Under the pieces are notes generated by a model. That model saw only the letters and a program-made list of their open reading frames with translations. It was not told where the DNA came from and searched no databases. From Arthrobacter sp. S41 (GTDB taxonomy: Bacteria; Actinomycetota; Actinomycetes; Actinomycetales; Micrococcaceae): a stretch of 64,000 nt of DNA. Where the stretch lies: assembly GCF_004320535.1 (NCBI RefSeq), contig NZ_SIHY01000002.1:434001-498000 (forward strand). Direction: 5' to 3'. Positions 10,579 through 32,188 of this stretch are shown here, piece by piece; positions within the stretch are counted from its first letter, which is position 1, and every line of letters begins with the position of its first letter. Position numbers and translations under genes: made by a program.

Positions 10579-10620
10579 ACATCCCCGGTCGAGCGTTGAA
10601 TCTTTCGAAACCTTTCTCAG

Positions 10621-10633
10621 ATTGTTGAACAAT
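10621..10633. promoter_or_regulatory. Operator-like palindrome before pxpA
   Basis: ATTGTTgAACAAT is a perfect 13-bp palindrome around a single central base, 54 bp before the pxpA start. The same TTGTTgAACAA core occurs twice before ycsG and, slightly changed, in the second repeat copy. FCD-type GntR regulators commonly bind short symmetric sites of this kind. The GntR gene at 14849 is the obvious candidate. Confidence 0.6.
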
Positions 10634-10687
10634 TATCGAAAGTAAGGCATTCTTTTACCAAGACATGTTCACGAGACGGGGATCACA

Positions 10688-11446
10688 ATGCCATTCATAG
10701 ACCTGAATTCCGACGTAGGCGAATCATTCGGCAACTGGAAAATGGGCGATGACGCCGCCATCTTCACCTCCGTCTCCTCGGCAAATATCGCTTGCGGTTT
10801 CCATGCCGGGGACCCAAGCACCATCGCACAAACCTGCCGCGATGCCGTCAGTGCTAACGTCACCATCGGCGCGCACGTAGGCTACCGGGATCTGGCCGGC
10901 TTCGGCCGTCGTTTCCTGGACTGCTCGGCGACCGAGCTAGCTGACGACGTCCTGTACCAACTCGGTGCCTTGCAGGCTCTAGCTCGCAGCGCCGGCGCAG
11001 AAATCAAGTACGTCAAGCCCCACGGCGCCCTCTACAACACGATCGTGCACCACGAGGTACATGCCCAAGCGGTCATCGATGCCATCAAGGCTTTCGGCAC
11101 GGACCTTCCGGTGTTGCTCCTGCCTGGATCCGTTGCCCTGCGCAAGGCTGAGGCCGCCGGGCTACTCGGCGTTGCCGAAGCTTTTGCCGACCGCAATTAC
11201 AACCCAGATGGCACCTTGGTCTCCCGCCGCGAAGCCAACGCGGTACTGCATGACCCCGAAGCGGTCACCCAAAATATGATCCGTCTGGCCACCGAAGGAA
11301 CCATCGTTGCTGTCGATGGCAGCACAATCACCATGCCAGCCGAAAGCATCTGCCTTCACGGAGACACCGCAGGAGCAGTGGCCATGGCTCGTGCTGTCCG
11401 CGCCGGATTAGAAAACGCCGGAGTACAGATCCGGAGCTTCGCGTGA
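10688..11446 (+). CDS. pxpA: 5-oxoprolinase subunit A (LamB/YcsF family)
   Basis: A 252-residue LamB/YcsF-family protein, the A subunit of the ATP-dependent PxpABC 5-oxoprolinase that opens pyroglutamate to glutamate in the cytoplasm. Family blocks are clear: [18 protein letters not shown] at the N-terminus, [29 protein letters not shown] and [10 protein letters not shown], followed by [17 protein letters not shown]. The first gene of a tight operon, it overlaps the pxpB-pxpC fusion by 4 bp (GTGA), which implies translational coupling. A TTGTTgAACAA palindrome upstream suggests regulation with the distant ycsG-ycsI unit. Confidence 0.93.
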
Positions 11447-13041
11447 GCATCCGCGCTATCCACCGGGCTGGATCCAATGATCTGCTCGTCGACCTAGACT
11501 CACTCGATGCCGTCCTTGCGCTCAATGCCGCTTTGGAATCTGCTCCCCTATCCGGACAGCGCGATCTCTTGGCCGCTGCCCAGACAGTACTACTGAAGTT
11601 CGATTCGCCGCAGAGCGCCGAACGAGCCCTGGCAACATTGCCAGAACTTGAAGTCGCTTCTGCAGTTCAGAACGCGGGCAAGCTGGTAGAAGTACCAGTT
11701 CATTATGATGGTGAGGATCTGACGGCAGTCGCCGAGCTGACCGGACTGAGCACCGAAGCAGTCATCAATGCCCATACAAGCCAGAAATGGCGGGCAGTAT
11801 TTGGCGGATTCGCTCCCGGCTTCGCCTATCTGCTCGGCGAAAACCACGTCTTGAATGTCCCACGCCGAAACTCCCCGCGCACCAAAGTGCCCGCCGGAGC
11901 CGTGGCCCTGGCCGGCGAATACTCGGCTGTTTATCCGCGTCAATCCCCCGGTGGCTGGCAGTTGATCGGGCATACCGATCTGCAAATGTGGGATCTGCAG
12001 CGCGAAAACCCTGCGTTGATCCGACCACAAGATACTGTGCAGTTCATCCCGGCTACCCATAAAATTTCGGTGAGCCACGCGCCCGCCGCACGAGACGAAG
12101 CGCCAGCGCAGGCACCTGGCGGTGGCCTAAAAATCATCGATGCAGGGCTGCAGTCCCTGCTCCAGGATGCCGGACGCATCGGTTACGGAAACCTCGGAGT
12201 CGGCGTTGCCGGAGCGGCAGACCCCGCCGCATTCCACCAAGCCAATCGACTTGTCGGCAACCCGGCAGGCCAGGCGGTCATTGAAAATCTGGGCAGCCGC
12301 ATCACCCTCGAAGCCAGCGGCGATCAAGTTTTGGCACATACCGGGGCGCAAGCGCAGCTGTGGATTACCCCGGCTGAGGATGACCAGCTACGCACCCCAC
12401 GGCAGGTCGCCAGCAACGCTCCCTTTGCACTACTGAACGGCGAGCGCCTGAGCGTGGAGCCCGACGGCCTGGGGTTGCGCAGCTACCTCGCGGTGCGTGG
12501 AACCATTGCGCTCACACCAGTTCTGGGTTCCCTGTCCACCGACACACTCTCTGGGGTTGGCCCCGATCCGCTGGTTTCCGGATCCGTCATTCCGGTCAGG
12601 CAGCCAGCCATCGGACGCATAGTCGGCAATCCGCAGCCGAGCACGCTACCGGTTCCCGATGAGCAGGGGGTGTACCAGCTCAGAGTGATCGCCGGACCTC
12701 GCACCGAGTGGTTTGGCCCATCCGGGGTGCGACAGCTGACCGAACAACTCTGGAATGTCACCAGCGAGTCGAACCGCGTAGGCATCCGCTTGTCGACCGA
12801 CCAGCAGCCCTTACAGCGTGTGCTCTCCGGGGAGCTCGCCAGTGAAGGCGTCGCCAGAGGATCCTTGCAGGTTCCACCGTCGGGCCTTCCTGTGCTCTTC
12901 CTGGCTGATCATCCGGTCACCGGTGGCTACCCGGTGATCGCCACGGTGATCGCCGAAGACCTCAGCGCTGCAGCGCAGCTTCCCCCGGGAAGCAATATTC
13001 GATTTGTCCTCCAGTCCCCCGCCGCTTTGACGGCCAAGTAA
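11443..13041 (+). CDS. pxpBC: 5-oxoprolinase subunits B and C fused (KipI-KipA type)
   Basis: One 532-residue polypeptide joins two subunits that are separate in Bacillus and Escherichia. Residues 1-205 are the PxpB/KipI (allophanate hydrolase subunit 1) domain, with [31 protein letters not shown] and the [13 protein letters not shown] block. A short Pro/Ala linker follows, and residues from about 225 are the PxpC/KipA domain, with [21 protein letters not shown] and [17 protein letters not shown]. Together with PxpA this should couple ATP use to pyroglutamate ring opening. The same two domains also occur inside urea carboxylase, which matters because a biotin carboxylase follows. The start is a GTG overlapping the pxpA stop. 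Confidence 0.92.
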
Positions 13042-13056
13042 CTTCTTAGGATTGTC

Positions 13057-14796
13057 ATGAAAAAGGTACTGATCGCCAACCGCGGCGAAATCGCAGTTCG
13101 CATTGCCCGGGCGGCCACTGATACAAATATTAGTTCCGTAGCTATTTACTCGGACCCAGACGCCGACGCCTTGCACGTACGGCGTGCCGACGAGGCTTAC
13201 CCGCTGCATGGATCCACCGGCGCTGACACCTACTTGAATATCGAGAAGATCATTGAGATCGCCCAGCGCTGCGGGGCCGACGCGGTACACCCTGGCTATG
13301 GTTTCCTTTCGGAGAACGCCAACTTTGCCCAGGCGGTGATTGACGCTGGGATGAAATGGATCGGCCCCTCGCCGCAGGCCATTGAGGAACTGGGCAATAA
13401 GGTCACTGCTCGTCAGATTGCCGTTCGTGCCGGGGCACCATTGGCACCAGGCACCGATGGTCCTGCCGAAAATGCTGCAGAGGTTCGTGCCTTTGCCGAG
13501 GAATATGGTGTGCCCGTAGCTATCAAGGCTGCCTTTGGCGGTGGCGGCCGCGGCATCAAAATCGCGTATTCGCTCGATGAGATCTCCGAGGCCTTCGAGT
13601 CTGCCACGCGTGAGGCCACCGTGGCCTTTGGCCGCGGTGAATGCTTCGTGGAGCGTTTCCTCTCCAAGCCACGACATGTTGAGGCACAGGTTCTAGCTGA
13701 TACCCACGGCAATGTTGTCGTCGTTGGTACCCGTGATTGCTCACTGCAGCGCCGTCACCAGAAGCTGGTGGAGGAAGCACCGGCGCCGTTCCTCAGCGAT
13801 GAGCAGCGAACCCGCATCCACGAATCGGCGAAGGCGATCTGCAAGGAAGCTGGCTACGTTGGCGCCGGCACCGTTGAGTATCTGGTTGCCCAAGACGGCC
13901 TGATCTCCTTCTTGGAGGTCAATACCCGTTTGCAGGTGGAACACCCGATCACCGAAGAAACCGCTGGCGTGGATTTGGTGGCAGAGCAGTTCCGCATCGC
14001 TGATGGCCTGCCGCTATCACTGAGCGAAGACCCAACTCCCCAGGGCCATGCCTTTGAATTCCGCATCAACGCCGAGGACCCTGCCCGCGGATTCCTTCCA
14101 GCTCCGGGCACCGTAGAACGCTTCGAGGCACCCACGGGCGCCGGGGTGCGTATCGATTCTGGTGTTCGCAGCGGTTCAATCATTCCACCGTTCTACGACT
14201 CAATGATTGCCAAGCTCATTGTGCACGGAGCCGACCGCAATCAGGCGTTGCGTCGAGCCCGCCTGGCTCTGGAGGAGATCACCATTGCCGGTGTTCCGAC
14301 GGTCCTACCGTTCCACCGTGCGGTCATCGACCACGAAGACTTTAATGGGGAAAAGCTGAAGGTCTACACGACCTGGATTGAGGACGAATTCCTCAATGAA
14401 GTCGGGGCCAGCGATGAGATGGATCTTGACCAGCAAGATACCAGCCGGGAAACGATCACCATTGAGCTCGACGGCAAGGCGGTCCAACTCGGATTACCCG
14501 CCGCTCTCACCAACGCCTTGCGCAACCCATCGGGTGCTGGTTCCTCCCAGACAGCTCAGACCCAGGATACTGCCGAGCAAGATGCTTCCTCCGTACTCAG
14601 CCCAATGGATGGCAATCTCGTGCGCTTCGCAGTCGAAGACGGTGAGACCGTTTCCAAGGGGCAAACCGTCGCCGTGGTTGAAGCCATGAAAATGGAGTCT
14701 GCCGTAGCGGCCCATCGCGACGGAGTATTCACCGCAGGCAGTATTGACGTTGGGGCTGCGGTACGTCGTTCCGACGCGCTGGGCAGTATCCAGTAA
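13057..14796 (+). CDS. Biotin carboxylase-BCCP fusion subunit
   Basis: A 579-residue alpha subunit of a biotin-dependent carboxylase. Residues 1-450 are biotin carboxylase: [18 protein letters not shown], the glycine-rich ATP loop [11 protein letters not shown], the [17 protein letters not shown] block and [15 protein letters not shown] with the catalytic region. After a low-complexity linker rich in Thr/Gln/Asp, the last 70 residues are a biotinyl domain with VEAMKMES, whose Lys carries biotin. It begins 15 bp after pxpBC and is likely co-transcribed. No carboxyltransferase beta gene lies nearby. It may serve acyl-CoA carboxylation with a remote partner, or act on the amide or lactam substrate handled by its neighbours. 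Confidence 0.92.
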
Positions 14797-14848: not shown

Positions 14849-15526
14849 ATGAAATCCAGCAGCAATGTCTCCAAGCTTCCAGCCAAAGCGCCCCATGCGC
14901 ACAGCGGCGTTTGGGCCGCGAACCTTTTGCGCACTCGCATCGCTGAAGGTGAATTGTTGCCCGGAGACAAGCTGTCTGAACAGTCCTTGGCGGAGTCATT
15001 GGGGCTTTCACGCAATACCTTGCGTGAAAGCTTCACCCTGCTCGACAGTGAACTGATCATCACCCGAATCCCCAACCGCGGGGTTTTTGTTGCGTCTCCC
15101 GATGCTGATGATGTGCGCGAAATTTATGCGGTGAGACGCACCATTGAGCCTGCTTGCCTGGCTTGGGGTCCAGAACTGGATTTGGAGCAGCTGGGCAAGA
15201 TCATTGTCGAAGCTCGTGCGGCTTTGGCGGCCAAAGACATTCCACGAATGGCTAGTGCCAATCAGGCGTTCCATCAGCAGCTGGTTCGATCCTCTGACAG
15301 CGCTTTGGTCCAAGAGCTCATGGGACGTGTGCTGGCCAAAATGCGTTTGGTCTTCCACGCAATGAGCGACGCCCCTGATTTCCACTCGCACTATGTGGAG
15401 CAAAATGCCCGCCTGGTTGAACTACTGAATAAGGGCCAACGCGATGAAGCAGCGACGGCCCTGCGCGGGTACTTGGACAAGGCTGAAGCAGAGTTGCTCG
15501 AACACATCAACAAGGCATCCGAATAG
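14849..15526 (+). CDS. GntR-family regulator (FCD subgroup)
   Basis: A 225-residue repressor. The winged helix-turn-helix is at residues 25-90 (LSEQSLAESLGLSRNTLRES, then the wing ITRIPNRGVFVA). The all-helical C-terminal part with the FCD layout runs to the end (DDVREIYAVRRTIEPACL, ASANQAFHQQLV). FCD domains bind small carboxylic acids, often with a metal. As the last gene of the pxp operon it holds the place that KipR, which is of another family, takes in Bacillus. I infer that it binds the TTGTTnAACAA palindromes before pxpA and ycsG and senses 5-oxoproline or a related acid. Confidence 0.88.
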   Translation: MKSSSNVSKLPAKAPHAHSGVWAANLLRTRIAEGELLPGDKLSEQSLAESLGLSRNTLRESFTLLDSELIITRIPNRGVFVASPDADDVREIYAVRRTIEPACLAWGPELDLEQLGKIIVEARAALAAKDIPRMASANQAFHQQLVRSSDSALVQELMGRVLAKMRLVFHAMSDAPDFHSHYVEQNARLVELLNKGQRDEAATALRGYLDKAEAELLEHINKASE

Positions 15527-15910: not shown

Positions 15911-16900
15911 GTGAACTTGCCCGTTGCCGAATTACATATCCATCTCGAAGGAACCCTGGAACCCGAGATGATCATGTCACTGGCCGCCAAGCATTCAATT
16001 GATCTGCCCTACAGCTCAATCGACGAGCTGCGGGCACAGTACGAATTCAGCAACCTGCAGTCATTCCTGGATCTCTTCTACGCCAACATGCTGGTACTTC
16101 GCACCCGCGAAGATTTCTACGAAATCACCATGGCCTACTTGCAGCGTGCACACGCTTCAGGCGTGCGCCACGTGGAATTGTTCTTTGACCCCCAAGCCCA
16201 TGTGGAGCGCGGCATGAACCTGCGCGATATCATCGCCGGGATCCGTGACGCATTGAGCGAAGCGCAGGAACGCTGGGGAATCTCGCACAAACTCATCGCC
16301 TGCTTCTGGCGTCATGCACCGGCCAGCGAAGCGTTGGAGCTTTTGCGCCTAATGATCGCTGAAAAGCACGACATCGATGGAATCGGCTTGGACTCCTCCG
16401 AACTGGGATTCCCACCAGAACTCTTTGTTGACGTTTTCGGCTTAGCCCGCGAAAGTGGTTTGCACGTTGTCGCCCATGCCGGCGAAGAAGGCCCAGCTGA
16501 CTACATTTGGCAGGCTTTGGATCTGCTCAAGGTAGAGCGAGTGGACCACGGCATTCGTTGCTTGGACGATGAGAAGCTGGTGCAGCGACTCGTTGCAGAA
16601 CAGATGCCGCTGACCGTCTGCCCGCTGTCAAATATCCGACTGCGTGCGGTGGACACCATGGCGGATCACCCATTGCCATCCATGCTTGAGGCGGGGCTGA
16701 AGGTTTCCGTGCATTCCGATGATCCGGCGTATTTCGGCGGGTACATGGATGCCAACTTCGCTTCGCTGATGAAGGCTTTCAATTTCAGCACCGAGCAATT
16801 GGCACAGTTGGCCCGAAATTCTTTTGAATCTTCATTCATTGACGATTCTGCGAAGAGTGAGCGACTGGCAGAAGTAGAGGCTTGGGTTAGCCAACGCTAG
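15911..16900 (+). CDS. add: Adenine/adenosine deaminase
   Basis: A 329-residue zinc-dependent amidohydrolase of the ADA family, removing the 6-amino group of adenine or adenosine in the cytoplasm (purine salvage). Metal ligands are visible in ELHIHLEGTLEPE (HxH), VVAHAGEEGP with the third His and catalytic Glu, the VDHGIRCL His, and SDDPAYFGGY with the Asp pair. The last motif and the overall length resemble the adenine deaminase subgroup, but adenosine cannot be excluded. The start is GTG at 15911 after GAAAGG. It sits between the two halves of the 5-oxoproline gene set and is stopped by a strong bidirectional terminator. Confidence 0.88.
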   Translation: MNLPVAELHIHLEGTLEPEMIMSLAAKHSIDLPYSSIDELRAQYEFSNLQSFLDLFYANMLVLRTREDFYEITMAYLQRAHASGVRHVELFFDPQAHVERGMNLRDIIAGIRDALSEAQERWGISHKLIACFWRHAPASEALELLRLMIAEKHDIDGIGLDSSELGFPPELFVDVFGLARESGLHVVAHAGEEGPADYIWQALDLLKVERVDHGIRCLDDEKLVQRLVAEQMPLTVCPLSNIRLRAVDTMADHPLPSMLEAGLKVSVHSDDPAYFGGYMDANFASLMKAFNFSTEQLAQLARNSFESSFIDDSAKSERLAEVEAWVSQR

Positions 16901-16971: not shown

Positions 16972-17781
16972 TTATGGCACCTGATATTGCGAATCTTTGA
17001 TGTCGGTGATCAGCATGTGGCCAGGTGCATGCCCGATAGCCAAGGATGGCTTCGACTCCATGACAGCTGCTTGTGGCGTGACGCCGCAAGCCCAGAACAC
17101 CGGGACACTTCCTGCCGGAATTTGCACCGCGTCACCAAAGTCTGGCTTCGACAGGTCAGTAATTCCCAGCTCTTCCGGATTGCCTATATGTACCGGTGCC
17201 CCATGCACCGCTGGATATCGCGAGGTAATCCGAACGGCATCCGCTACCTGCGACGCCGGTATGGGCCTCATCGACACCACCATTGGACCGGAGATCACCC
17301 CAGCAGTGGTGCTGCGCGCAGTGGTCTTATACATGGGCACATTGACACCCTGATCAATGTGCGCGACGGAGATTCCGTTGTCCATCAAGGCTGACTCAAA
17401 GGTAAACGAACAGCCAATGATGAAGGTGACCAAATCATCGCGCCAATACTCGGTCAGGTCGGTGGGTTCGGCAACCTTGACCCCATTTTCATAGACCGCG
17501 TACTTCGGAACATCGGTTCTGATGTCTCCGCCAGCCAGTAGTTCGCCGGACACTTCCCCTGCTTCAAGCACGCCCAGCACCGGGCAGGATTTGGGGTTGC
17601 GCTGGGCAAAAAGCAGAACATCAAACGCTAGTGCTCGCGGCACGATCATGAGGTTCGCCTGCGCATACCCAGCGCTGATTCCAGCGGTGGGAAGCACTTG
17701 GCCTTCGCGGAAGAACTCACGAGCTTGGCTTGGGGATAATGCCGAACGTTCGGCCACGGTCATGTCACTGATGTTACTCAC
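16972..17781 (-). CDS. ycsI: DUF1445/YcsI-family protein (putative D-glutamate cyclase-like hydro-lyase)
   Basis: A 269-residue cytoplasmic protein of the DUF1445 family, recognised from SPSQAREFFREGQVLPTAG, PKSCPVLGVLEAGE, FIIGCSFTFESALM and WACGVTPQAAVMESKP with APGHMLITDI at the end. Bacterial members are usually called putative hydro-lyases. A related domain occurs in mitochondrial D-glutamate cyclase, which interconverts D-glutamate and 5-oxo-D-proline, so a place in 5-oxoproline metabolism is reasonable. The start is GTG at 17781, 12 bp after the ycsG stop. The two form one unit, as ycsG and ycsI do in Bacillus. Confidence 0.85.
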   Translation of the reverse strand: MSNISDMTVAERSALSPSQAREFFREGQVLPTAGISAGYAQANLMIVPRALAFDVLLFAQRNPKSCPVLGVLEAGEVSGELLAGGDIRTDVPKYAVYENGVKVAEPTDLTEYWRDDLVTFIIGCSFTFESALMDNGISVAHIDQGVNVPMYKTTARSTTAGVISGPMVVSMRPIPASQVADAVRITSRYPAVHGAPVHIGNPEELGITDLSKPDFGDAVQIPAGSVPVFWACGVTPQAAVMESKPSLAIGHAPGHMLITDIKDSQYQVP

Positions 17782-17793
17782 GGTCTACCTGCC

Positions 17794-19014
17794 TTAGCCC
17801 TGCCAGAGCGCTGCTAGCCCGGCCAACGAGTTCCATCCAAGGAACACGCTCAACAGCCATGCGAGCACGCCCACCAGAAGCAGGACCTTCGGGTACTTAT
17901 AGCCACCCATGAGATCCCGACGACGCCACGCAACCCACAGTAGAACTGCGAAACCGACAGGCAAGATCAAGCCGTTGAATGCTCCGGCGAAGATCAGCAA
18001 GGTTGCTGGTGCCTTACCCAGGAACAGGTAGATGATGCCGCAGACTGCGATGAAGGCGACCGTGATCAAATTGCGGGTTCGTTCTGAGGTGGTCCGCTTG
18101 GTGATGAATGAAACCGAGGTGTAGGCGGCGCCGATAACGCTGGTCAGAGCCGCAGCCCACAGGATGATGCCGAAGGCTCGAATACCGATATCGCCTGCGG
18201 CGTGGCCGAAAGCTTCAGCTGCCTTGTTATCGCTGGCCAGCACCACGCCGCCGGCAACAACGCCGAGGATCGCCAGGAACAAGAGCACTCGCATGACACC
18301 GGTGACGATGATAGCCAAGATCGAGATGTTGGAAATTGATTTGACGTGCTCAATACCGCTGGTGCCCGAGTCGATCATGCGGTGTGCACCAGCGTAGGTG
18401 ATGTAACCACCAACGGTGCCACCGATCAGGGTGGTGATAATCAGGAAGTCGACCTTCTCGGGCAGAACGACGTTCTTCAGTGCCTCACCTACCGGAGGCG
18501 CGGCAACTATGGCTACGTACAGCATCAAGAGAATCATGATGGCGCCAAGAAGCACCACGATTCGGTCCAATGCCATCCCTGCCTTTTTGGACAGGAAGAT
18601 CAGGATTGCCACTACTGCCGAGACGACACCACCAATTTTGGCGTCCACTCCCAACATTGCGTTCGCGCCAAGACCTGTACCGGCGATGTTACCGATGTTG
18701 AAAACCATGCCGCCGATGAAGACGAGCGCTGCCAAAACCCAGCCAATGCCAGGTAGGACTTTGTTCCCTAGTTCCTGTGCTCGCATGCCACTGACGCCAA
18801 TAACGCGCCAGACGTTCAGCTGTACCGCGATGTCGACGAGGATCGACACAACAATAGCGAAGGCGAAGGCCGCGCCGATTTTCACTGTGAATTCGGTGGT
18901 CTGGGTAATGAATCCAGGCCCGATGGCGCTGGTGGCCATCAAGAACATAGCGCCTAGCAGGGCGGTGCGCCGCGCTTTGGGGCTCATTTCAGTCTTTGAC
19001 TCAGGAAGTGCCAT
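17794..19014 (-). CDS. ycsG: Nramp-family transporter (YcsG-like)
   Basis: A 406-residue integral membrane protein with about eleven hydrophobic segments, of the divergent Nramp branch typified by YcsG. A soluble N-terminus (MALPESKTEMSPKARR) is followed by AIGPGFITQTTEF, where classical Nramp proteins carry a DPGN metal motif. The altered motif suggests the substrate may not be a divalent metal. Linkage to pxpABC and ycsI makes import of 5-oxoproline or a similar compound plausible, as an inference. Two TTGTTgAACAA palindromes lie 67-103 bp upstream. The promoter and first 106 codons exist a second time at 31718-32142. Confidence 0.85.
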   Translation of the reverse strand: MALPESKTEMSPKARRTALLGAMFLMATSAIGPGFITQTTEFTVKIGAAFAFAIVVSILVDIAVQLNVWRVIGVSGMRAQELGNKVLPGIGWVLAALVFIGGMVFNIGNIAGTGLGANAMLGVDAKIGGVVSAVVAILIFLSKKAGMALDRIVVLLGAIMILLMLYVAIVAAPPVGEALKNVVLPEKVDFLIITTLIGGTVGGYITYAGAHRMIDSGTSGIEHVKSISNISILAIIVTGVMRVLLFLAILGVVAGGVVLASDNKAAEAFGHAAGDIGIRAFGIILWAAALTSVIGAAYTSVSFITKRTTSERTRNLITVAFIAVCGIIYLFLGKAPATLLIFAGAFNGLILPVGFAVLLWVAWRRRDLMGGYKYPKVLLLVGVLAWLLSVFLGWNSLAGLAALWQG

Positions 19015-19118
19015 GGTGACGTTCCAATGCGATAGTGGTGACAGCTGTCACAGAATCAATGTAACGCACATGACATTACAGGTTGTTGAACAACCTTGGC
19101 AAGATGTTGTTGAACAAT
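18697..19118. repeat. Direct repeat copy A (ycsG 5' end and promoter)
   Basis: This 422-bp stretch matches 31721-32142 in the same orientation without visible gaps. It carries the first 106 codons of ycsG, its leader and both operator palindromes. In the coding part 7 of 106 residues differ between the copies, and scattered base changes occur in the promoter. This is therefore a diverged pair rather than a fresh duplication. The two copies bracket the glycosidase island. Confidence 0.9.
19081..19117. promoter_or_regulatory. Two operator palindromes before ycsG
   Basis: GGTTGTTgAACAACC (19081-19095, 15-bp palindrome) and TTGTTgAACAA (19107-19117) have centres 24 bp apart. Both share the core found at 10621-10633 before pxpA, which ties ycsG-ycsI to the pxp operon, presumably through the GntR/FCD regulator. 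Confidence 0.6.
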
Positions 19119-19122
19119 TTTA

Positions 19123-31720: not shown

Positions 31721-32038
31721 GTTGAAGACCATGCCTCCGATGAAGACAAGGACTGCCAAGAACCAGCCCACACCAGTCAGAACCTTATTGCCAAGTTCTT
31801 GAGCGCGCATGCCCGAGACGCCAATAACACGCCAGACGTTTACCTGTACCGCGATGCCGACGAGGACCGACACAACAATAGCGAAGGCGAAGGCCGCGCC
31901 GATTTTCACCGTAAATTCGGTGGTCTGGGTAATGAATCCAGGGCCGATAGCGCTGGTGGCCATCAAGAACATAGCGCCCAGCAGGGCGGTGCGCCGAGCT
32001 TTGGGGCTCATTTCAGTCTTTGACTCAGGAAGTGCCAT
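31718..32038 (-). pseudogene. Truncated ycsG copy (first 106 codons)
   Basis: The start and 106 residues match ycsG at 17794-19014 with seven substitutions, beginning with the same MALPESKTEMSPKARR and ending after FIGGMVFN, where foreign sequence supplies a chance TGA. Only the first two or three membrane segments of the 406-residue transporter remain, so it is not functional as a carrier. Its promoter with altered operators is retained upstream (32107-32141). Confidence 0.9.
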
Positions 32039-32142
32039 GGTGACATGCCAATGCGATAGTGGTGACAGCTGTCACAGAATCAATGTAACGCACAAGACAT
32101 TACAGATTATTGAACAACCTTGGCAAGATGTTGTTCAACAAT
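31721..32142. repeat. Direct repeat copy B (ycsG 5' end and promoter)
   Basis: Gap-free 422-bp partner of 18697-19118, same orientation, about 13 kb away. Its left border coincides with the break in the transposase-like frame. Its right border leads straight into the PadR promoter region. Confidence 0.9.
32107..32141. promoter_or_regulatory. Operator palindromes retained in repeat copy B
   Basis: TTATTgAACAA (32107-32117, one arm changed) and TTGTTcAACAA (32131-32141, perfect arms with a changed centre) correspond to the two sites before intact ycsG with the same 24-bp spacing. They would act on the truncated copy and may titrate the regulator. Confidence 0.5.
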
Positions 32143-32188
32143 ATTTCTCCAGTTTTTAGCGAGCGAAGTGGCGGTACTGCTCATTTGC

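Follow-up and report, generated by a model that had tools for sequence, protein, structure and literature searches.

A PxpB-PxpC fusion encoded beside a biotin carboxylase in Arthrobacter: a candidate biotin-dependent 5-oxoprolinase

1. Introduction

The closest described relatives of the locus considered here are the PxpABC systems of Bacillus subtilis, Escherichia coli and Corynebacterium glutamicum, the last of which is controlled by PxpR, a regulator that senses 5-oxoproline and represses pxpTABC (PMC13274462). The locus itself lies in a 64,000-nucleotide stretch of Arthrobacter sp. S41 (Micrococcaceae; assembly GCF_004320535.1, contig NZ_SIHY01000002.1, positions 434,001 to 498,000, forward strand), which is referred to below as the window and numbered from its first letter, and it encodes PxpA, a fusion of PxpB with PxpC (PxpBC), and a biotin carboxylase (BC) joined to a biotin carboxyl carrier protein (BCCP) domain. 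The partnership between PxpBC and BC-BCCP is strongly supported, and the operon may well encode a biotin-dependent 5-oxoprolinase, a reading to which we assign a probability of roughly 0.6.

Two further kinds of system invite comparison. Urea carboxylase (UC) and fungal urea amidolyase are built from BC, CT_A_B, CT_C_D and BCCP domains, the same kinds that are found here, and their Lys1605 (K1605 of KlUA) is the probable general base (PMC5770610). A two-component 5-oxoprolinase was also described from Pseudomonas putida by the Meister group: component A is a hexamer of 64 + 51 kDa dimers with 5-oxoproline-dependent ATPase activity, and hydrolysis requires component B (82 kDa) (PMC8453981).

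2. The Operon and Its Parts

The features on which the argument turns are the following.

10688..11446, plus strand: pxpA, a LamB/YcsF family gene whose 26.3-kDa product presumably hydrolyses the lactam (profile match)
11443..13041, plus strand: pxpB-pxpC fusion (CT_C_D + CT_A_B), carboxyltransferase-fold subunit, 55.6 kDa (profiles, structure comparison)
11863..11865, plus strand: Arg141 of the fusion, at the position of the UC general base Lys1605 (alignment)
13057..14796, plus strand: BC with BCCP, AccA-type, 61.8 kDa, a dedicated paralog (profiles, tree)
14689..14691, plus strand: Lys545 in the AMKM of BC-BCCP, predicted biotin attachment site (motif)
10619..10635, plus strand: palindrome AGATTGTTGAACAATTA, probable operator of the pxp operon (14/17 positions agree with the PxpR operator of C. 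glutamicum, 15 when read on the opposite strand)

The three genes form a tight operon: the end of pxpA overlaps the start of the fusion gene by 4 bp, and 15 bp separate the latter (532 amino acids) from the gene for BC-BCCP (579 amino acids) on the same strand. Pfam profiles place LamB_YcsF on PxpA (6e-99), CT_C_D (6e-58) and CT_A_B (1e-73) within the single chain of the fusion, and Biotin_carb_N, CPSase_L_D2, Biotin_carb_C and Biotin_lipoyl on BC-BCCP, whose ATP-grasp and catalytic motifs, as far as they were looked for, are all retained, as is the AMKM motif with Lys545. The parts of a biotin-dependent carboxylase in general are present (a BC with ATP-grasp motifs, a BCCP with its biotinylation lysine and a carboxyltransferase-fold partner), and so are those of the PxpABC type, with PxpA (LamB_YcsF), PxpB (CT_C_D) and PxpC (CT_A_B) encoded together. 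An earlier sequence-only reading of this DNA had described KipI/KipA-type domains and BC plus BCCP in adjacent genes with PxpA, and the open reading frames, the profiles, the overlap and the short gap bear this out.

With the PxpABC systems the locus shares the three protein families, a nearby NRAMP gene, a GntR regulator and a matching operator; it differs in the fusion of PxpB to PxpC, in the added BC-BCCP gene and in scores that fall short of the NCBIfam cut-offs for PxpC (NF045499, 161 against 500 bits) and PxpB (TIGR00370, 129.8 against 145.55 bits), while PxpA passes its subfamily cut-off (358 against 226). The sequence-only reading had also called the layout urea-carboxylase-like, which holds for the kinds of domain and for the carboxyltransferase fold but not for the rest: here there are two chains in another domain order, the BC is of AccA descent, an arginine stands for the general-base lysine, and PxpA takes the place of allophanate hydrolase. 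Membership among the urea carboxylases was rejected because there are two genes rather than one chain, because of Arg141 and because the BC groups with AccA; the best score against TIGR02712 is 532.1, the cut-off being 1303.85 bits. Actinobacterial AccA3-type alpha subunits have the same full-length BC-BCCP architecture, whereas here no AccD is near and the pairing is with PxpBC.

The 3.47-Mb genome encodes four biotin carboxylases: that of the cassette, AccA, a protein of pyruvate carboxylase length and an MCC-like protein that adjoins its own carboxyltransferase gene. A profile search of the genome gave three Carboxyl_trans matches (C2:283441, C1:2142839 and C1:226887) and no acyl-CoA carboxyltransferase near the cassette, the closest match, at C2:283441, being about 160 kb away; the absence of such a gene from the neighbourhood, as first read from the sequence, is thereby confirmed. 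The genome's own AccA (C2:296193) is close to this AccD-type gene. UC was not found by profile search of the genome, since there is only one CT_A_B match. The third Carboxyl_trans match belongs to a lone carboxyltransferase-type protein of 502 amino acids (C1:226887-228224, L008) that no biotin carboxylase adjoins, beside an open reading frame that resembles CaiB/BaiF-type CoA-transferases (family assigned by eye).

3. A Conserved, Co-inherited Pair

A PxpBC match is found in 132 of the 149 genomes of the source's family. By coordinates, a BC lies directly downstream on the same strand in 81 of 124 family genomes, a count made on the matches listed (126 PxpBC rows, covering 124 of the 132 genomes with a match, together with some of the BC rows), in which the 43 genomes scored as non-adjacent are an upper bound; two of 20 "negative" loci fetched again (L247 and L253) do carry a BC. 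A survey of this adjacency had been suggested in the sequence-only reading, and it places the pair in at least 83 of the 149 family genomes, with further occurrences in Pseudomonadota and on plasmids. Seen from the other gene, 74 of the 76 BC rows that are at least 62% identical to the window protein, among the matches listed, adjoin PxpBC, the two exceptions being one genome in which they lie on different contigs (G381) and a second copy in another (G399). PxpBC and BC-BCCP are a conserved, co-inherited pair and not a chance neighbourhood.

Outside the family, a cassette of pxpA, fused pxpBC and BC/BCCP occurs at 13 of 80 named pxpB loci, in Paracidovorax, Variovorax, other Burkholderiales, Photorhabdus, a Bartonella metagenome-assembled genome (MAG), Rhizobiales, a Pseudomonas MAG and Arenivirga. 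Cassette-type BC was scored in 17 of 398 Pseudomonadota genomes (three candidates per genome, by sequence only, with neighbours unchecked), and in 6 of the 13 genomes of one pseudomonad genus. Sixty wide stretches around CT_A_B matches, hand-chosen from a longer list, were examined as well.

Plasmids carry the cassette too. The Rhizobium cassette BC matches 215 plasmid records, 193 of them at 60% identity or more, and 95 of the 215 are from Klebsiella. In the Klebsiella, Bartonella and Rhizobium records examined the plasmid cassettes comprise GntR, NRAMP, pxpA, D-glutamate cyclase (as "putative hydro-lyase"), pxpBC and BC; a P. aeruginosa plasmid record has pxpA, hydro-lyase, pxpBC and BC, a Comamonadaceae plasmid has pcp, pxpA, pxpBC and BC, and a plasmid of Sinorhizobium meliloti Rm41 (L293) has pxpA, pxpBC and BC followed by glycolate oxidase-like genes. 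No 5-oxoproline genes are listed by the S. meliloti cassette, whose substrate may perhaps be another lactam, and the Klebsiella plasmid pKleb8A7 (L292) bears the whole cassette, including GntR, NRAMP and D-glutamate cyclase, on an IncFIB backbone. A Streptomyces match to the cassette BC (59.8%) had no pxp genes adjoining it.

4. Descent and Recurrent Pairings

A 65-domain BC tree unites all 36 cassette BCs in one group, adjacent to actinobacterial AccA, with a support of 91 by the Shimodaira-Hasegawa-like approximate likelihood ratio test (SH-aLRT); with the four AccA rows they form a group of support 100, apart from UC, MCC and PYC. In a more careful tree of 36 rows the 25 cassette rows are supported at 84/68, and cassettes plus the four AccA at 100/100. 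Because of the 84/68 value, a single origin of the cassette BCs is favoured by the trees but not proven. On a PxpBC tree of 95 rows the fused proteins form a clade of 55 (support 99). The copy from an Arthrobacter plasmid clusters there with one from a family genome, and the tree offers too few independent pairs to compare fusion with BC presence.

Pxp proteins have met biotin carboxylases more than once: split Pxp clusters are paired with BCs of other lineages, which sit on the BC tree at two or more positions besides that of the cassettes. One locus (L087) has the order PxpB, PxpC, BCCP, BC, D-glutamate cyclase, PxpA. A 455-amino-acid protein of Faecalispora jeddahensis (L175:8647-10014) joins a CT_A_B domain of the PxpC type to a BCCP domain that carries an SMK motif; BC and D-glutamate cyclase follow it, and a second, unfused PxpC lies alongside. 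A further set of clusters (f18/f34) has a PxpB with the UC-type lysine in a VPKY motif (10 rows from 10 genomes, with a BC near in 9); in its wide loci (L085, L086, L097 and L068) the split PxpB adjoins PxpA, PxpC and a biotin carboxylase, in one of them (L085) the biotin-uptake gene BioY lies between these genes, and the same PxpB occurs in short loci (L013, L020 and L026-L029). These clusters may encode another type of biotin-dependent lactam enzyme. In one genus (g212, L287-L290) PxpBC and BC-BCCP even lie in a single open frame, connected by a linker, in four of five PxpBC-bearing genomes, and in the fifth (G403, L291) no BC lies in the stretch fetched. Lactiplantibacillus pentosus is reported to have an extra BC and BCCP as well as pxpB and pxpC, both species-specific and not linked to each other in the published account (PMC12427679).

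5. Fold, Active Site and Structural Partners

An AlphaFold model of the fusion, with a mean predicted local distance difference test score (pLDDT) of 93, aligns to the UC structures 3va7 and 5i8i with Z of 24.9 and 33.6 (root-mean-square deviation 2.1 over 297 residues, in the PxpC half), the UC structures ranking after PxpB and PxpC homologues; in the predicted model PxpBC shares the fold of the UC carboxyltransferase domain. By alignment, Lys1605 is the lysine of TTKYNP, to which Arg141 of the window PxpB corresponds. A PxpB residue that would mark the biotin-linked form was sought and given up, as the seven positions conserved in cassettes and UC and below threshold in BC-less rows are confounded by phylogeny.

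A physical hint comes from PDB entry 9yx5 (released 2025-11-26), whose title names a long chain acyl-CoA carboxylase complex of Mycobacterium smegmatis with MSMEG_0435-MSMEG_0436 bound. Chain V of the entry matches PxpC, chain W matches PxpB, and AccA3 is present too, according to title and chain names; AccA3 is also the best solved-structure match of the window BC-BCCP, at 762 bits. The entry resembles the Arthrobacter pair in bringing together PxpB-PxpC and an AccA3-type BC-BCCP, and differs in having PxpB and PxpC as separate chains and AccA3 itself as the BC-BCCP. Neither a paper on 9yx5 nor one tying PxpBC to biotin as a mechanism was found in the open-licence PMC literature. The partnership proposed from the sequence gains from three sides, namely the conserved pair, the 9yx5 entry and the PxpC-BCCP fusion seen elsewhere.

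6. Operator, Neighbours and Substrate

The genes that follow the operon, and the operators beside them, are these.

14849..15526, plus strand: GntR/FCD regulator, with a PxpR-like role that we infer
15911-16900: adenosine deaminase gene, between the GntR/FCD and D-glutamate cyclase genes
16972..17781, minus strand: D-glutamate cyclase family (PF07286) gene, a family found inside cassettes elsewhere
17794..19014, minus strand: NRAMP-family transporter gene of the PxpT/YcsG kind (5-oxoproline or manganese uptake)
19080..19120, minus strand: a pair of PxpR-like operators ahead of the NRAMP gene

A scan of the window with the C. glutamicum PxpR operator sequence (PMC13274462) gave eight strand-matches with up to three mismatches, where 0.12 would be expected; some stand just ahead of pxpA and of the NRAMP gene, others near 32.1 kb. 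The operator core lies about 65 bases ahead of pxpA in most of the family relatives that were scanned. The core TTGTNNNACAA stands within 300 bases before pxpA at 28 of 44 distinct cassette loci (0.09 expected), at one of eight other BC-bearing loci and at 3 of 81 split loci without BC; it is also a general kind of site for FCD/GntR regulators. A 425-bp copy (window 31721-32145), 90% identical to 18697-19121, repeats the 5′ end of the NRAMP gene with its two PxpR-like operators; this truncated copy, which holds operator matches near 32.1 kb, precedes a PadR-ABC transporter gene group.

Among 19 cassettes with long flanks, 17 have D-glutamate cyclase, NRAMP, pyroglutamyl peptidase or DUF979 nearby, 16 a GntR gene and four a pyroglutamyl peptidase; near 94 split BC-less clusters, pyroglutamyl peptidase was counted 20 times, D-glutamate cyclase 12 and NRAMP 7 times. 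A B. subtilis relative of the NRAMP protein is said to import manganese (PMC10448178). On the strength of gene context and the PxpR-type operator, the cassette substrate is most likely 5-oxoproline, of either hand. The sequence-only reading had suggested an enzyme for a lactam or amide rather than a plain 5-oxoprolinase; it was right on the partnership, and probably wrong to set it against 5-oxoprolinase activity, a biotin-dependent 5-oxoprolinase being the likelier combination.

7. A Putative Mechanism and What Competes with It

In the chemistry we propose, BC-BCCP would use ATP and bicarbonate to form carboxybiotin on Lys545, the fused PxpBC would act as carboxyltransferase and pass the carboxyl group to the lactam (N or O) of 5-oxoproline, and PxpA would hydrolyse the activated lactam, the resulting carbamate shedding CO2 to leave glutamate. 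The net reaction would be 5-oxoproline + ATP + water to glutamate + ADP + Pi, and since bicarbonate would be recycled, a requirement for it could be overlooked; a futile cycle of carboxylation and decarboxylation would resemble a 5-oxoproline-dependent ATPase. This biotin-dependent chemistry is likely but unproven, and we infer every chemical step as well as assembly in the source species.

The old P. putida enzyme can be set beside this scheme by size. Across seven cassettes the computed masses (some counted from the first methionine of the open frame) are 60.5-64.7 kDa for BC-BCCP, 55.6-59.5 for PxpBC (six) and 26-28 for PxpA, so that the 64 + 51 kDa of component A may be compared with BC-BCCP plus PxpBC and the 82 kDa of component B with three PxpA, each being near in mass; PxpB and PxpC as separate chains would presumably fall short of component A. 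We know of no sequence for this two-component enzyme.

Several points weigh against a biotin-dependent enzyme. Niehaus is said to have reconstituted the B. subtilis activity in 2017 from recombinant PxpA, B and C. In the published model, stated there as assumed, PxpBC phosphorylates 5-oxoproline (PMC13274462). Fused PxpBC commonly lacks an adjacent BC, in one case (G421) within the same genus, and on a Tsukamurella plasmid the neighbours listed for a fused PxpBC include neither pxpA nor BC. Presence of the BC on the PxpBC tree needs seven changes, at least five of them forced, one locus (L118) having been labelled BC-less although a BC lies in the same frame; the BC would have been gained or lost repeatedly, most simply by repeated loss. 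Arginine replaces the UC lysine in all 82 cassette PxpB rows, against lysine in 7 of 7 UC rows, and is equally present in 128 of 133 rows scored BC-less, so that the residue is no marker of the biotin-linked form; in this count only identical rows were removed, some loci appearing twice, and the five lysine rows were scored BC-less owing to short loci, a BC lying about 2.7 kb off in four (G145, G164, G200 and G216) and the fifth (G026) ending close to a contig edge. The core TTGTNNNACAA precedes pxpA in 4 of 28 fused loci without BC as well. The P. putida 51 kDa subunit falls below the computed range for PxpBC, and binding in 9yx5 may reflect regulation or chance co-purification. The single frames of genus g212 contain a Shine-Dalgarno-like sequence and an in-frame GTG or ATG before the BC, making separate initiation and dual products possible; because of these starts, the single-frame fusion lends weak support.

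Identity to the window BC points the same way, as the genome's own AccA, at 64.4% over the BC domain, lies within the 64-69% of cassettes from other taxa, and an AccA of another family reaches 66.7%; over the full length, own AccA is 58% and four cassettes are 58-63% identical. Identity was dropped as a mark separating cassette BC from AccA because the ranges overlap, and the separation rests on trees and synteny. The loss of this argument is offset by the recount of adjacency and the L. pentosus report, which weigh the other way.

Were PxpABC a plain ATP-dependent 5-oxoprolinase, with PxpBC phosphorylating the lactam, BC-BCCP would be dispensable for the core reaction and play an accessory part, perhaps by stimulating the enzyme or by providing carboxyphosphate or CO2. 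We think this unlikely, while taking it seriously: it accords with the commonness of BC-less PxpBC, fused and split, with an Arg141 that is the same with and without BC, and with the printed model and the reported reconstitution, but it leaves aside a dedicated BC kept beside PxpBC in several phyla, the PxpC-BCCP fusion and the UC-type carboxyltransferase fold. That BC-BCCP instead serves a remote acyl-CoA beta subunit and is merely co-regulated with the pxp genes seems highly improbable, for the closest Carboxyl_trans gene is distant, none is listed beside the cassette in six annotated plasmid examples, and the genome's own AccA already has an AccD-type gene near it; what speaks for this view is the AccA-like full-length protein, similar to AccA3 and to its own AccA, and the Carboxyl_trans gene at C1:226887 that has no adjoining BC partner. 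We give equally little credence to a biotin-dependent enzyme acting on some other lactam or amide (5-oxo-D-proline, hydantoin or another cyclic amide) in place of 5-oxo-L-proline: the D-glutamate cyclase genes found within cassettes or close to them speak for 5-oxo-D-proline too, and the S. meliloti cassette adjoins glycolate oxidase-like genes, but the pyroglutamyl peptidase of some long-flank cassettes and the PxpR-type operator fit 5-oxo-L-proline. A biotin-dependent 5-oxoprolinase is the reading we retain.

A wider extension is possible but doubtful, namely that PxpABC is generally a biotin-dependent carboxylase-hydrolase in which ATP acts on bicarbonate, not on the lactam, that PxpBC without a dedicated copy borrows a housekeeping BC-BCCP (AccA3, AccB/AccC), and that component A of P. 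putida is BC-BCCP plus PxpBC. The sole grounds for such borrowing are 9yx5 and the AccA descent of the cassette BCs. PxpBC genomes devoid of any BC were considered as a refutation and set aside: in a phylum sample 75 of 76 CT_A_B genomes have a BC, as do 277 of 296 overall, and the single BC-less one (G100) is a 94% complete assembly and hence uninformative. Thermococcales have PxpB/C-like genes (PMC3199775).

8. Implications

The coupling of ATP to lactam opening by PxpABC stands in print as an assumption (PMC13274462), and a cassette with its own BC makes the question testable. If the biotin-dependent reading is true, there would be a reason for the presence of PxpB-PxpC on a mycobacterial carboxylase complex, and the 5-oxoprolinase enzyme work of the 1980s would be re-interpreted. 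A lactam would then join urea, and also guanidine, among the substrates of carboxylases with the UC-type carboxyltransferase fold.

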